A stretch of 10,538 nucleotides of DNA from Candidatus Melainabacteria bacterium (GTDB lineage: Bacteria > Cyanobacteriota > Vampirovibrionia > Obscuribacterales > Obscuribacteraceae): positions 1-10,538 of the forward strand of contig JACQVM010000324.1 of the NCBI GenBank assembly GCA_016209785.1. Reading direction: 5' to 3'. Below the pieces are notes generated by a model. That model was not told where the DNA came from, ran no database searches, and saw only the letters and a program-made list of their open reading frames with translations. Of the stretch, positions 2,119 through 8,981 are shown in pieces (position 1 is the first letter of the stretch; the number at the start of each line of letters is the position of its first letter). A program made the position numbers and the translations under genes.

Positions 2119-5073
2119 ATGAACTGCAACACATTTAGATTTTTGATTCAACAAAGTTGTGACATGGAGTTACCTGTCGAGGATGAGGAGCTGCTCTTAG
2201 CCCACCTTGAATCGTGTGAATCCTGCACACGCTTTCAGCATCAGCTTGGGCAAGTGGTAGAAGCTGCCGAAGAATTATCTTTGCCGGAAGAGGTATTGCC
2301 TAGCAACTTGGAGTCGTTGGCGCGTACAATCATGCAACAGCTCCCGGCACCTAAACAATCTATTTTCGCCACGATTGGAGCCTTTTTGAGCTCCAAAAAA
2401 GCCAAGCAACCCAAGGAACCTAAAGAGTCCAAGAAGGTTCTTGCTGAGCAGGCTAGCAAGTTTCCGCACATTGCACGTAAGTCCCCTGAGAGCCAATCGT
2501 TACGCAAGGGACAAAAACCAGCCGGTGCTGTTGAAATGGACGAAAGGCAGGCTCAATCAGTACGATTAAAGGGCATGTCTCGTTCCGGACAAGTTCCCAG
2601 TGATTTGACCCAGTCTGGCACTCGCTCGCTGGGGGAGAAATTTGGGCTTGTGGCCTCTCAGCAGGATGCAGCACCAGATGAGGTTCCGTTGACTCTAGCG
2701 GAGTCCATCCGGCGCAAGGTGACTGAAGAGCTTCAGGTAAAAAATATTGACCTTGCTCAAGTCGAGGCCGCATCATCAGGCACCACAGGTGGTGAAGAAT
2801 GGTCTGGGACGAGTTCTGTAGTGACACCAACTCCACAGAGTGAGCCTGTTGGGCAGCAATACGGCAACCAAGGGCTGGGTGGATTTCCGAGTGACTCCAC
2901 CGGCAGTGCCTGGACTTCAACTAGCCCACAGCAGTCACCGGACATGACTTATCAAGCGGATGAGTGGGGAGGACAGTCCCAGTACCCAGCAGGTGGAGCC
3001 TGGGAGGAACCTCAATCTAACGCTCCTACTGGAGTGGAATGGGGTGTGCCTCCACAGCCTGGGAATTGGGCGCAACCAGACTCTGCTTGGGGGCAGGCAA
3101 CCAGTGATTCTGACAGTCAAACAAATTGGGGTAAACCACAGGAGCCAGCCGGTCAGGACGCACATGGTGCCGGTTGGGGAGACACTGGAAGCACACCTCA
3201 AGGCGGTGCCTGGGAAGGCCCAACAGTTACGCCAACTCCTGCGAGCTGGTCAGAGGAGGCGGAGCAAATTCAGACTGGCATGTGGCAGGCATTTAGTCCA
3301 GAAGGTGCCCTTGGGGCGACATCTAAGCCAGTTGTGCCAAGCTCGCCAGTGCAGCCAGCACCGCAAGCTTCCAATGTGCAGGACTCTCAGCGGTGGGATG
3401 TGCCGATTCAAGAGCGAACACAACAGTCCGGTCGTCCAGCACCTTGCGAGGCAGATCGTTGGGATGTGCCAATCCAAGAGAGATTGAAAATGCAGGCTGG
3501 CCAAGCAGGACAAACAAAGGATGTAGTTGAGAGTTCCAGTTCTCAAGGCGTACCTGCTGAGTCCATCATGAATCGTCTAAGTAATATTCTTGGAGAGGAG
3601 ACTAAATCAACTCATTCACCACCGCAGGAAAGTCAAGCCCCTCCTGACCGCTGGGATGTACCTATTCAAGAAAGAATGCCCGACAGGCAGCCAGTTGTGC
3701 CAGCCAGTCCAGTGCCGGCTGACCGCTGGGATATACCAATACAAGAGCGAAAACAGCTCATGCCTCCGGTAGCTCCTGCTAGCCAAGCTGTTCCAGCGGC
3801 GGGTGGACTGTTCAAGAACCTTGATGATGGAGCTATGGACCGCCTTTTTAGTGATAATTTAGGAGTTGTTGATTCAACACGCTCAGTCTCGGCCAGTCAG
3901 CCGCTGGGGCAACCTCCTCCACAGGTGCAGTCTGCTTCTCAGTCCATTGAGCCGGTTGGATCTAGCGCAGTTGCACCCCAAACGTCAGATTTTTCTGTTG
4001 CGCCGCCAACGGTGCCGACTGTCCCTGGTGCCCCAACTATAAGCCCTGTGACACCTAAAATTCAGGTGCCTCAGTCTGCTACGACATCACCACCGGTGAT
4101 ACCTGCACCTAAGCAAAGTCCTGATGTGCAGGAGTTAAACAAGGGACTTTTGCAAAACTTGGATGATAGCGCCATTGACAAATTGTTTAGTGAGAATCTA
4201 GGCGTGACCGAGTCTGTCCAACCTGTGGCTTCTGCCCAGGTACCCCAACCAGCGCAATCAGCACCACCATCTGCACCAATAACCGTACCATCGCCACTCC
4301 CTGCACCATTTCAGCCACAACAAGGTGGGTGGAGTGAAACGCCAGCCCCGGTGTCGCCTGCTCCTAGCCAGCAGCCTCCTGCCCCGCCACAGCCAGCCGG
4401 CGGGCTGTTCTCGGTAGATGATGACATGATGGACAAGCTCTTTGCGGACAACCTTGGTGTTGCAGAAAAAACAACACCGCCAGCTCCTAAAGTAAATGTA
4501 AGCGAAGCTGTGCAGTCTATTAAAAGCACAGCCGGAGCCCCTTGCCCGCCGCCGCCCAAGGTAGAGGGGCTAGGGAGACTTGCGCAGGCTGAGAAGGGTC
4601 CTGAAGCTGGGTCAGGTAAGATTGCTTCAATTGGTAAGTTCCTGTTAGATCAGCAAGACCTATCTAAGCTTGGCAAGCTAGCTGCGTCAGATCTTTCTGA
4701 CACCAAGATGCGCATTCTTACTATGGAGGCCTCACAACAACTGCAGGGCTTGCTCCAGACGATAGGGGCACAGCAAGGAGTAGTTGGGTCAGTTATTGTG
4801 GGTCATGATGGCATTCTTATTGCCAACAGTATGCCTGCCGACCTTGATGGGGAGAACATTGGTATATGGGCGCTTGGGATGTACCTCAATACAGACAATG
4901 TGCTGAAGAAGATGGGGCATAATCACATACATCAGGTGGTGGCACGGACAGTTCGAGGTTATCTCATCATTGCTGACTTTGGAGGCGGCATTCTTGTTAC
5001 GCTGACCGATGGTGCAGAAACGGATAAGCTCATACCACTGATGCGTAGCATCACTCAACTGGTAGCTCAATGA
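2119..5073 (+). CDS. Zinc-binding anti-sigma motif / low-complexity / Roadblock-LC7 fusion protein
   Basis: A 984-residue protein with a fold at each end. Residues 1-80 resemble the zinc-binding anti-sigma domain: an early Cys (C3), helices, and the H29-x3-C33-x2-C36 motif (HLESCESC). Such domains bind and silence the sigma factor encoded next to them. Residues about 85-865 are low complexity, rich in Pro, Gln, Ser and Ala. They hold a Trp-spaced segment (228-389), four RWDVPIQER motifs (425, 447, 511, 536) and three LDD-to-NLGV helical motifs (563, 676, 762). Residues about 870-982 read as a Roadblock/LC7 domain: LLQTIGAQQGVVGSVIVGHDG, then a helix, then a strand pair YLIIADFGGGILVTLTD. Roadblock proteins bind or regulate Ras-like GTPases. 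No membrane helix is present (the short SIFATIGAFLSS is too brief), so a soluble cytoplasmic regulator is likely. The start is ATG after GAAAAGAGA. The long tail and Roadblock end are unusual for anti-sigma factors. Confidence 0.85.
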   Translation: MNCNTFRFLIQQSCDMELPVEDEELLLAHLESCESCTRFQHQLGQVVEAAEELSLPEEVLPSNLESLARTIMQQLPAPKQSIFATIGAFLSSKKAKQPKEPKESKKVLAEQASKFPHIARKSPESQSLRKGQKPAGAVEMDERQAQSVRLKGMSRSGQVPSDLTQSGTRSLGEKFGLVASQQDAAPDEVPLTLAESIRRKVTEELQVKNIDLAQVEAASSGTTGGEEWSGTSSVVTPTPQSEPVGQQYGNQGLGGFPSDSTGSAWTSTSPQQSPDMTYQADEWGGQSQYPAGGAWEEPQSNAPTGVEWGVPPQPGNWAQPDSAWGQATSDSDSQTNWGKPQEPAGQDAHGAGWGDTGSTPQGGAWEGPTVTPTPASWSEEAEQIQTGMWQAFSPEGALGATSKPVVPSSPVQPAPQASNVQDSQRWDVPIQERTQQSGRPAPCEADRWDVPIQERLKMQAGQAGQTKDVVESSSSQGVPAESIMNRLSNILGEETKSTHSPPQESQAPPDRWDVPIQERMPDRQPVVPASPVPADRWDIPIQERKQLMPPVAPASQAVPAAGGLFKNLDDGAMDRLFSDNLGVVDSTRSVSASQPLGQPPPQVQSASQSIEPVGSSAVAPQTSDFSVAPPTVPTVPGAPTISPVTPKIQVPQSATTSPPVIPAPKQSPDVQELNKGLLQNLDDSAIDKLFSENLGVTESVQPVASAQVPQPAQSAPPSAPITVPSPLPAPFQPQQGGWSETPAPVSPAPSQQPPAPPQPAGGLFSVDDDMMDKLFADNLGVAEKTTPPAPKVNVSEAVQSIKSTAGAPCPPPPKVEGLGRLAQAEKGPEAGSGKIASIGKFLLDQQDLSKLGKLAASDLSDTKMRILTMEASQQLQGLLQTIGAQQGVVGSVIVGHDGILIANSMPADLDGENIGIWALGMYLNTDNVLKKMGHNHIHQVVARTVRGYLIIADFGGGILVTLTDGAETDKLIPLMRSITQLVAQ
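2800..3285 (+). repeat. Tryptophan-periodic low-complexity segment (protein-level repeat)
   Basis: Within the anti-sigma/Roadblock fusion, residues 228-389 carry twelve Trp residues (228, 265, 283, 295, 308, 317, 324, 337, 353, 365, 377, 389). Each sits in a Gly/Pro/Gln/Ser context such as GGAWEEP and GGAWEGP. The last three intervals, and the one between 283 and 295, are all 12 residues; the others range from 7 to 37. Evenly spaced aromatics in a disordered chain are typical of multivalent linkers. The repeat is at the protein level; the DNA copies are diverged. Confidence 0.7.
3391..3750 (+). repeat. Four RW-D-[VI]-PIQER short linear motifs
   Basis: Nine-residue motifs begin at residues 425, 447, 511 and 536 of the anti-sigma/Roadblock fusion. 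Three are identical (RWDVPIQER) and the last is RWDIPIQER. Three of the four follow (A or P)-D, and all are followed by unrelated linker sequence. Synonymous codons differ between copies (CGG/CGT/CGC for Arg, ATT/ATC/ATA for Ile), so the peptide is being preserved rather than recently duplicated. That pattern suggests a docking motif for a partner protein, identity unknown. Confidence 0.9.
3805..4467 (+). repeat. Three LDD..(M/I)D(K/R)LF..NLGV helical motifs
   Basis: About 22-residue copies at residues 563-583, 676-696 and 762-781 of the fusion protein share the pattern G-L-(F/L)-x3-DD-x-(A/M)-(M/I)-D-(K/R)-LF-x-(D/E)-NLGV. Each is predicted to form one short amphipathic helix between Pro-rich linkers. 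A weaker relative, MNRLSNILGEE, lies at residues 484-494 between the second and third RWDVPIQER motifs. These could be a second class of docking or self-association site. Confidence 0.85.
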
Positions 5074-6590: not shown

Positions 6591-6619
6591 TTGACTTGCC
6601 TTAATCACTTAAGTAGAGT
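6591..6619 (+). promoter_or_regulatory. Sigma-70-type promoter for the LysM-protein gene
   Basis: TTGACT (6591-6596, five of six consensus bases) is followed after exactly 17 bp by TAGAGT (6614-6619, four of six). Transcription would start near 6626, giving a leader of about 28 nt before the ATG at 6654. This also argues against a TTG start at 6591, which would lie inside the -35 box. An 8-bp palindrome, ACTTAAGT (6607-6614), sits in the spacer. Confidence 0.55.
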
Positions 6620-6653
6620 AACCATAGCTTCTCAAGCGGAACCTAATGCGTTA

Positions 6654-8981
6654 ATGCCCATTTCTTACCGGCCTCAAAACTTTGCACCAACCTCCTCCGG
6701 GGATGTCTCTGGTGGTGGTAGTGGTACAACAGAGCTGTCACATGCAGGGCTTAGCGCAGGTCTAGAATCTCAGCTAGCTTCTCCTAGTGAAGTTAGCAAG
6801 GCTCATCAGTTTTTCCAACCTAATTTAGATGTAGGATTTACAACCTCTGGGCTGGCCGGACATGAGGTGTCTACACTCCCACTGGCAAGCGGGATTGACT
6901 CTCATGCACTGGCGGCAATCCCGGCAGCCGGCGAGCCGATTTCCCCCTTAATCCAGCTCATCATGAAGCTGCCAGGCATGGGTGCAATCAACTCCTTGCT
7001 AGATGCACTAGCAGCATTTTTTATGCCAGGCACACACCTTATGACGTCGCTTGATCTGTCTACATTGGCACAGCAGGCTCAAAGTGCTGTTACGTCTTTG
7101 AGCCTAGGGGCTAGCGAACATTTGCCCATTAGCCTTTCGCTGCTTCCCTCTCATGCTCCTATCTTTCAAAGCCTGGGAATTGGTACCCCTGGATTTAACT
7201 ATCTTTCAGGGAAACTTGCTGCTGGCGGTTTTGAGCAGCCTTTAGGAGCACTATCAAGAAATCCTTTGAATGTATCGGGCCAATTAAATCTGCAGAAGCC
7301 TCAGTTTGAACCATCTTTTAATGAAACCAGCAGTCTAGTGCCACGTGGTCTTTCTGGGGAGACTAGTCAGCTTACCTCAGGGGCGGCTCTTTCCAATCAG
7401 TCTGTAGGCGAGCACTTAGCTGGCAACCATAGACTTTTTACAGATCGCATAGATGCAACTTCACCAGGCACGTCGCAGTCTAGCTCAATGCCAACAGGCT
7501 CACAAACTACGGTTGGCTTGTCACATACTGTACCCTTGTCCAATTGGCCAGGCTCGATGCATGCAGGAGCGTCCATTCATGGACACCATGCAGAAGCCCT
7601 GTTGCCAGTGGCACAAATTAAAGATGGTGTCCTAAGTGGGCCAGCCCTTTCGCAGACAGTGGCAGCACACCTGGGAGCACCCTCCCACCCTGCACTTGAT
7701 GGCAACACTACATTAGGACCATCTGGAGCTGTTGGACTAGAGTCCAAGCAACTACTGGTGTCCGATTCGCTACCTGCTTATCGCCCTGTCGTTGGAGGCT
7801 CTCAGGCGCTTCCAGCTAAAGATATTACCTATGCTAAGCCAGACAGCTCTCTATCTTTTTCGGCACAGTCAGGGACCGGCTCCAGCAAGCTGCCTGTTGT
7901 GCAGGCTAGCTCTGCCGAGTCACCGACAACCATTGCCGGGCTGAAGGCTAAGCAGCTTACGCTTCCTGGTGTAAAGGCTGCTGGTACGGCATCCCCGCAT
8001 GCTAAGCCAGTTGTCGATCATATTGCCCACCAGAGCCGAGGTAATCAGGAAATGCTTTCAGCTCGTGGCGGAAAGGCAGTTGATCAAATTGCACATCAGT
8101 CACCTCACAAACCAAGTGAGCAACCACTCAGCCTTGCCACGCGCCAAACAAGAGTACCCAGTACATCTTCTTCTGAGCTTGCCGTAAAGAATGCTCAAGG
8201 TATTAAGCAGAACTTAGTGCCTGCTTCCAAACACAATGAGATTGCCCAAAGTCAACCAGTCAGTACACCAGAAGGAGCTCTAAAGACAACCTCAGAATCT
8301 TCAGGTACTTCGTACACTGTAAGAGCTGGTGATTGTCTTTGGAACATTGCACGCAACCATCTAGGCTCCGCTGTCCGGTGGCAAGAAATTTACAAACTTA
8401 ACTCTGACTTGCTAGGGTCCAATCCGCACCTAATCCAACCAGGTACAACCATTAAAATGCCTGGAGTTGATAGTCAGCTTCTGATGCCGGGAGACAACGT
8501 AAGTAAATATGTGGTTCAACCTGGGGATAATCTTTGGGAGATTGCTCAGAGTCAACTGGGAGACAGCAAGCGTTGGGGAGAATTGTATCGCTTAAATGCT
8601 AGCACTGTTGGCCCCAATCCTAAACTAATTTTGCCAGCCCAAGAGCTCACGCTACCTAATCAACCGCAGCTTGCCGGAGCTGTTGGTCCAACTACCCAGC
8701 AAACGCTGTTGCAGCCAGTGTCTGCATCTCAAGTACCCAGTGCTAGTTTACCTCCTGCAACACAAGCTGGTGCAATGGACAGTACCATGTCAGCTCCATC
8801 TCAATTTAATGGACACCCTGTTGTGTCACCTACTGCTTTTAATCAAGGTATGCCAGGTGGTGGTGCAGGTGCTGCTCAAGCTGCAATATTGCCCGCAGGC
8901 AAGGCATCACCAGCGGCTGCTAGTTCGCTAGTCTCATCGTCGCTCCGCCCAGATCTGTCCTTCTTAACACGCAAGCGCTGA
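6654..8981 (+). CDS. LysM-domain protein with long low-complexity N-terminal region
   Basis: From the ATG at 6654 this encodes 775 residues; only a weak purine-rich AGCGGA lies upstream as a ribosome binding site. Residues 1-550 are Ser/Gly/Leu/Ala/Gln-rich and mostly disordered-looking. They include one hydrophobic stretch at about 99-126 (LIQLIMKLPGMGAINSLLDA) and a small duplicated motif, KPVVDHIAHQS (451-461) and KAVDQIAHQS (474-483). Two LysM domains follow. The first, 554-603, runs from YTVRAGDCLWNIARNHLG to IQPGTTIKMP. The second, 619-668, runs from YVVQPGDNLWEIAQSQLG to ELTLP. Each has the RW-x-E-(I/L)-Y-x-LN core. LysM binds N-acetylglucosamine polymers, usually peptidoglycan. A Gln/Ala/Ser-rich tail of about 105 residues ends the protein. 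No enzymatic domain and no classical signal peptide are visible, so export would need another route, or the protein is a cytoplasmic or assembled-structure component. Confidence 0.88.
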   Translation: MPISYRPQNFAPTSSGDVSGGGSGTTELSHAGLSAGLESQLASPSEVSKAHQFFQPNLDVGFTTSGLAGHEVSTLPLASGIDSHALAAIPAAGEPISPLIQLIMKLPGMGAINSLLDALAAFFMPGTHLMTSLDLSTLAQQAQSAVTSLSLGASEHLPISLSLLPSHAPIFQSLGIGTPGFNYLSGKLAAGGFEQPLGALSRNPLNVSGQLNLQKPQFEPSFNETSSLVPRGLSGETSQLTSGAALSNQSVGEHLAGNHRLFTDRIDATSPGTSQSSSMPTGSQTTVGLSHTVPLSNWPGSMHAGASIHGHHAEALLPVAQIKDGVLSGPALSQTVAAHLGAPSHPALDGNTTLGPSGAVGLESKQLLVSDSLPAYRPVVGGSQALPAKDITYAKPDSSLSFSAQSGTGSSKLPVVQASSAESPTTIAGLKAKQLTLPGVKAAGTASPHAKPVVDHIAHQSRGNQEMLSARGGKAVDQIAHQSPHKPSEQPLSLATRQTRVPSTSSSELAVKNAQGIKQNLVPASKHNEIAQSQPVSTPEGALKTTSESSGTSYTVRAGDCLWNIARNHLGSAVRWQEIYKLNSDLLGSNPHLIQPGTTIKMPGVDSQLLMPGDNVSKYVVQPGDNLWEIAQSQLGDSKRWGELYRLNASTVGPNPKLILPAQELTLPNQPQLAGAVGPTTQQTLLQPVSASQVPSASLPPATQAGAMDSTMSAPSQFNGHPVVSPTAFNQGMPGGGAGAAQAAILPAGKASPAAASSLVSSSLRPDLSFLTRKR

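Follow-up and report, generated by a model that had tools for sequence, protein, structure and literature searches.

A soluble anti-sigma-like protein with a Roadblock/LC7 tail, paired with a divergent sigma protein in the order Obscuribacterales

The locus

The window analysed here is a stretch of 10,538 nucleotides (contig JACQVM010000324.1) from an assembly of Candidatus Melainabacteria (66.6% complete; order Obscuribacterales), and the gene under study occupies positions 2119-5073 of its plus strand. It encodes a protein of 984 residues in which an anti-sigma-like head is joined, through a long linker, to a C-terminal Roadblock/LC7 domain. Directly before it, at 1521-2093 on the same strand, lies the gene of a divergent sigma protein of the extracytoplasmic function (ECF) type, 190 residues long, which ends 25 nt from the start codon of the anti-sigma gene, so that the gene order named in the original prediction, made from the letters of the DNA alone, is correct. 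A frameshift joining two separate genes, a concern of the same prediction, is ruled out, since 2119-5073 reads as 984 residues without a stop and the full-length relatives also have one open frame. All parts of the protein located below are on the plus strand.

Among about 5.8 billion proteins searched, 66 others matched at E<=1e-3, giving a family of 67 members with the query, mostly of some 1000-1700 residues, whose named members are from assemblies of Candidatus Obscuribacterales and Melainabacteria. An alignment of 16 members with complete heads shows Cys3, His29, Cys33 and Cys36, and much of the tail, to be invariant. The genome comparisons covered 53 genomes from the order, a sample of 329 from the rest of the class and one of 386 from the whole phylum.

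Anti-sigma head and sigma partner

The head comprises residues 1-76 (2119-2346) and is modelled by AlphaFold as helices 3-15, 20-32, 34-52 and 64-74, with a predicted local distance difference test score (pLDDT) of 91-97 over residues 1-50. The motif HLESCESC at residues 29-36 (2203-2226) supplies His29, Cys33 and Cys36 as zinc ligands, and Cys3 (2125-2127) is the likely fourth. A chance origin of the motif is ruled out, since the pattern C-x20-35-H-x3-C-x2-C did not arise in any of 20000 shuffles of the protein. When a head profile built from six family rows was compared with the PDB, RsiW (5wuq_C) was found at E 4.8e-6 as the only match below E 0.1, the next standing at E 0.1. Because of this profile match and the helix pattern, the assignment of the head as anti-sigma-like, of class I and of the RsiW kind, is supported at the level of sequence and model, in agreement with the zinc-binding anti-sigma N-terminus originally proposed.

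The neighbouring sigma protein points to the same complex. Its region 4 matches Pfam Sigma70_r4_2 (E 6.2e-10), and no match to Pfam Sigma70_r2 was found for region 2 at E<=1. The best PDB match of its profile is SigW, chain 5wuq_A (E 3.1e-6), in the very entry that holds the RsiW match of the head; a fold search with the sigma model also returned 5wuq_A as best (E 2.4e-6), the top three matches being chains of 5wuq and 5wur. Across the whole chain, SigW, AlgU and sigma-E are matched by profile as well as by fold, which bears out the proposed sigma partner.

Relatives with both domains, and their neighbours, show how constant the pairing is. Within the order, the sigma family was found in 51 of the 53 genomes (E<=1e-12) and the head profile in 50 (E<=1e-3); once distant paralogues are set aside, 50 genomes have a close sigma and 49 a strong head. 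All 49 strong heads have the family sigma directly upstream on the same strand, with 17-157 nt between the matches, and the fiftieth close sigma (G003) is cut by a contig end. Three genomes (G011, G021 and G040, the second being 98% complete) have neither a close sigma nor a strong head, and all three possess MglA. With at most 8 candidates scored in each, none of the 329 genomes sampled from the rest of the class gave a match to the sigma family at E<=1e-12.

The history of the zinc site was followed on a tree of 45 of the 49 strong-head genomes, whose combined alignment includes the ligand columns, and on a second tree of the sigma protein alone, in which rows for loci read on the opposite strand were not used. 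The ligands are kept in 37 of the 45 heads and gone in eight, and on both trees the zinc label has to change twice, the changes being forced by well-supported branches. Seven of the zinc-less heads keep His29 and have lost all three cysteines; the eighth (G049) has lost Cys3, His29 and Cys33. As judged from these sequences, the zinc site is lost at least twice in relatives, and since the sigma neighbour is retained where the site is lost, zinc probably has a structural role. This agrees with the finding that RsiW still retains SigW when oxidised, according to the available part of PMC5358783, and with the existence of anti-sigma groups with both zinc and zinc-less members, according to that of PMC7406223.

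Linker and Roadblock tail

Head and tail are separated by a linker of about 775 residues. The original prediction gave its length as 800; the linker is long and disordered in the model. Residues 93-868 mostly have pLDDT below 50, except for short helices. Two types of repeated motif stand out from this stretch: four copies of [QD]RWD(V/I)PIQER, by motif count, at residues 424-544 (3388-3750), and three copies of xDDxx(M/I)D(K/R)LFxxNLGV at residues 566-583, 679-696 and 764-781 (3814-4461), where short helices are predicted. In their strict forms, the WD(V/I)PIQER type occurs in 46 and the DDxx(M/I)D(K/R)LFxxNLGV type in 62 of the 67 family proteins, fragments included.

No transmembrane-like segment was found before the Roadblock domain, the top Kyte-Doolittle mean over 19 residues being 0.96, and none of the 67 family proteins exceeds a mean of 1.6 outside its last 150 residues. 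A membrane anchor is thereby rejected for these parts of the query and the family, and the cytoplasmic layout proposed at the outset stands, with one refinement. Just after the head, residues 79-92 (2353-2394) form a Phe-rich amphipathic segment followed by lysines and conserved in the family: 60 of 69 distinct family segments pass the thresholds H>=0.7 and muH>=0.4 (hydrophobicity and hydrophobic moment), compared with 0.12% of random linker stretches. This segment, which presumably sits about where the membrane helix of RsiW would start, may lie as a helix on the membrane surface or make an additional contact with the sigma protein.

The Roadblock/LC7 domain covers residues 869-984 (4723-5070), which AlphaFold folds with pLDDT of about 90. 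Pfam Robl_LC7 matches residues 879-961 with 23.5 bits (cut-off 23), and structure searches with Foldseek and VIA-align return the Roadblock fold, their lists for the whole model being taken up by Roadblock rows and bearing on the tail. The C-terminal Roadblock domain placed earlier at about residues 870-982 is therefore confirmed. Ahead of it, residues 814-856 (4558-4686) form a conserved segment, KVEGLGRL...IGKFLLDQQDLSKLGKL, marked by invariant alignment columns; a similar segment, with the pattern IGKxLxD, precedes other Roadblock domains of the phylum.

Three or four Roadblock matches were counted in each of nine genomes. Extra Roadblock-like genes directly follow or overlap the anti-sigma gene in G031 and G004 (L195 3660-4037 and 4044-4493; L196 3412-4233). 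Loci L007 and L092 encode a Roadblock protein whose N-terminal part is hydrophobic and probably spans the membrane; the former, the copy of the home assembly, contains two Roadblock domains and is cut by the end of its contig.

Several genera also carry shorter head-Roadblock paralogues (L081-L091), mostly without the cysteine motif, which L087 keeps. A search for short head-Roadblock proteins from a paralogue of 435 residues was uninformative, as it found itself alone though other paralogues exist.

Pilus-linked relatives and a possible origin

In the phylum sample, the family model (E<=1e-10, up to two candidates scored per genome) found eight relatives outside the class, all matched in the tail only. 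No second head-Roadblock fusion appeared in this search of 386 genomes with at most two candidates each, which leaves room for such a fusion elsewhere. Two of the tail-only relatives, when read whole, show Roadblock alone in Pfam. Their tails have the IGKxLxD segment, and some of their linkers carry repeated motifs of the LDxLF type.

The setting of these relatives is also shared, the next large gene being pilB in seven of the eight. It was recognized by Pfam T2SSE and MshEN in six (L201-L204, L207 and L209) and by the N-terminal motif alone in G398 (L208); in G402, a Roadblock gene of 109 residues stands between the tail-only relative and pilB, and in G392 (L210) no pilB was seen next to it. 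By motif, pilT comes next in six and pilC in four, family models having been applied in L208 alone, and pheT lies upstream in L208 and, by motif, in L211. The membrane Roadblock gene of G021 (L092) likewise adjoins pheT. Moreover, in a small Roadblock tree two membrane Roadblock genes from the order cluster with those linked to pili (100/99); this tree has 18 rows, many loci having been missed by the pattern, its bootstrap is unsettled and its pilB-linked group includes L210. A SigF-like sigma gene was noticed after pilB-pilT-pilC in relatives of other classes, at L212 7137-7919 (best NCBIfam match SigF, below cut-off) and at L213 11621-12001 (by motif alone).

On these comparisons, the tail resembles a scaffold that other classes of the phylum encode next to type IV pilus ATPase genes, and the anti-sigma gene appears to be the sister of such a pilus-linked Roadblock scaffold, to which an anti-sigma head was added. 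In the order concerned, such a relative would have acquired both the head and the sigma partner.

MglA and DUF4388

Roadblock proteins invite the question of a Ras-like GTPase. The protein at L097:1306-1881 matches MglA of Myxococcus xanthus at E 1.1e-81, and MglA was found in 50 of the 53 genomes of the order, including all 22 of high quality, and in only six of the 329 sampled elsewhere in the class. Both MglA and the anti-sigma protein are thus nearly confined to one clade, which is weak evidence for a link between them. A gene for DUF4388, a domain that we take to correspond to PATAN, lies within 10 kb of the anti-sigma gene in at least 11 of 12 genomes picked for few contigs, where 0.65 would be expected from random placement; in G051 none was near the anti-sigma gene among the matches listed. 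Likewise, DUF4388 lies within 5 kb of at least six of 23 mglA genes (0.57 expected). PATAN genes near some mglA genes have been described by Wuichet and Sogaard-Andersen (PMC4316618, in its available part).

Proposed mechanism and its alternatives

The explanation that best accounts for these results is a soluble anti-sigma factor on a Roadblock scaffold, with the signal entering through the tail and linker, to which a probability of roughly 55% is given. The head would clamp the adjoining ECF-type sigma protein, while the tail would act as a Roadblock module borne by a long, disordered scaffold in which short motifs recur. The signal would most likely enter when the Roadblock domain and linker bind an MglA-like member of the Ras-like GTPases, a second Roadblock protein or the motor complex of the pilus; this binding would alter the clustering, location or accessibility of the head, a mechanism other than zinc oxidation or intramembrane proteolysis. 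A more specific version, in which MglA-GTP or the pilus ATPase complex binds the tail and moves or clusters the scaffold, perhaps at the pole or at the membrane via the amphipathic helix, and so controls the sigma protein, is tentative.

Several observations weigh against this explanation or parts of it. The curated models for the head remain below their cut-offs (Pfam zf-HC2, 16.1 bits against 22.2; NCBIfam NF052368 antisigmaE, 21.6 bits against 50). No family sigma match was found on the contigs of the head-Roadblock paralogues, nor beside the paralogues among the matches listed, and these proteins weaken the claim that the head always implies an adjoining sigma. The tail gives an hhalign probability of 0.7% against one true MglB, a comparison made with a shallow profile; MglA was looked for and not found in the incomplete home assembly, and G011 and G021 (both at least 90% complete) have MglA without a close sigma or a strong head. 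The co-occurrences with MglA across the order and with DUF4388 go back to shared inheritance and represent few events, and the pilus linkage belongs to head-less relatives in other classes and not to the anti-sigma gene itself. In the sigma protein, the stretch of regions 2.3-2.4 is poor in basic residues: the search pattern matched 51 of 55 loci rows and gave 38 distinct stretches of 26 residues, each with 0-2 Lys/Arg, compared with about five or six in the SigW and AlgU rows. With so few basic residues, ordinary promoter activation by the 190-residue protein is not assured on sequence grounds, and since the sigma protein is atypical, its release may differ from ordinary promoter switching.

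The cytoplasmic GTPase switch of the original prediction has thus held in part. Its anti-sigma-like head, Roadblock end, cytoplasmic layout and sigma partner have been recovered, and MglA is widespread in the order. Nevertheless, GTPase control of sigma release is not supported, in view of the missing home MglA, the absence of mglA from the contig of the anti-sigma gene in 12 tabulated draft genomes, the hhalign result and the two genomes G011 and G021. Control by a GTPase or by the pilus is put forward as a plausible, testable hypothesis and not as a result.

Part of this evidence would suit a Roadblock domain serving purely for homo- or hetero-dimerisation and localisation, without a GTPase, the sigma protein being set by amount, clustering or linker proteolysis. 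The lack of apparent sequence closeness of the tail to MglB and the absence of mglA from the anti-sigma contig in the 12 genomes fit this alternative, and partners are on offer in the several Roadblock matches of each of the nine genomes counted and in the extra genes after the anti-sigma gene in G031 and G004; according to the available part of PMC7949163, MglC of M. xanthus is both a paralogue and an interactor of MglB. However, almost every genome of the order has MglA, few others of the class do, and DUF4388 neighbours are common to the anti-sigma gene and some mglA copies, so a module of this type is considered rather unlikely. The poverty of basic residues, together with the lack of a Sigma70_r2 match, could also mean that the partner is a degenerate sigma unable to open promoters, the pair being a sigma-derived scaffold or adaptor and not a transcription switch; given that region 4 is well matched and that profile and fold of the whole chain match SigW, AlgU and sigma-E, this is held to be improbable. 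Finally, the zinc head might sense oxidants as in RsrA and release the sigma protein, with Roadblock only dimerising. The CHCC ligands in the window and in most tree genomes, as well as a weak match to the NCBIfam RsrA model (TIGR03988; 12.7 bits, cut-off 62.5), would agree with a redox switch, but the repeated loss of the ligands with the sigma neighbour kept, the behaviour of RsiW, the nearest solved relative, under oxidation, and the conserved linker motifs, which it leaves unexplained, make it quite improbable. For the Roadblock scaffold with entry through tail and linker, the comparison with described systems is given below.

Relation to known systems

The closest likeness is to RsiW-SigW of Bacillus subtilis, as the head and sigma match both chains of 5wuq and the CHCC ligands are shared. 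RsiW is membrane-anchored and subject to regulated intramembrane proteolysis (PMC5358783, available part), whereas the window protein combines the absence of a membrane helix with the long linker and the Roadblock domain. According to the available part of PMC7406223, a membrane helix is predicted in about two thirds of the known class I anti-sigma factors and about 35% are soluble, the latter often being redox sensors. These soluble factors are likewise cytoplasmic, and a single group can contain members with and without the zinc motif; that part of the paper mentions no Roadblock-tailed group. MglB, the Roadblock GTPase-activating protein of MglA, differs in that the tail studied here showed no sequence closeness to it in the profile comparison, was not found next to mglA and is fused to an anti-sigma head. 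The actinobacterial conservons CvnA-D contain a Roadblock protein and a GTPase, accompanied by a DUF742 protein and a histidine-kinase-like membrane protein; the available part of the source names no anti-sigma factor among these components. The head-less proteins beside pilB in other classes share the extended IGKxLxD segment, the Roadblock domain and, in some, the LDxLF-type repeats; in contrast, no anti-sigma head was matched in them and a pilus operon takes the place of the ECF partner.

The original prediction knew of no system with this architecture, and no description of the fusion or its setting was found among the papers listed in searches of an open-access library, most subscription papers lying outside those searches. 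A soluble anti-sigma factor ending in a Roadblock domain would bring a sigma factor under the direct influence of Ras-like GTPase or pilus signals and, if true, would link polarity or surface contact straight to transcription in bacteria, in a fusion conserved across an order of uncultured cyanobacterial relatives. In this context, the natural variants (zinc-less heads, sigma-less paralogues and head-less pilus-linked relatives) make the hypothesis testable.

Neighbouring genes

Promoter and terminator patterns around the genes were looked at and were uninformative. Between a carboxyltransferase gene and the sigma gene, a gene of 244 residues lies on the minus strand (568-1302); neither it nor the copy of one relative has a Pfam or NCBIfam match, and similar genes were seen by eye in the same place in several relatives. 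Downstream, the gene at 6591-8981 on the plus strand encodes a protein that matches the LysM domain twice and contains a long stretch of low complexity. In relatives, the anti-sigma locus sits a few genes downstream of a primary-type sigma gene, as in L194 (4083-5033; best NCBIfam matches RpoD, below their own cut-offs), and similar genes were recognized by eye in L193, L196 and L199.

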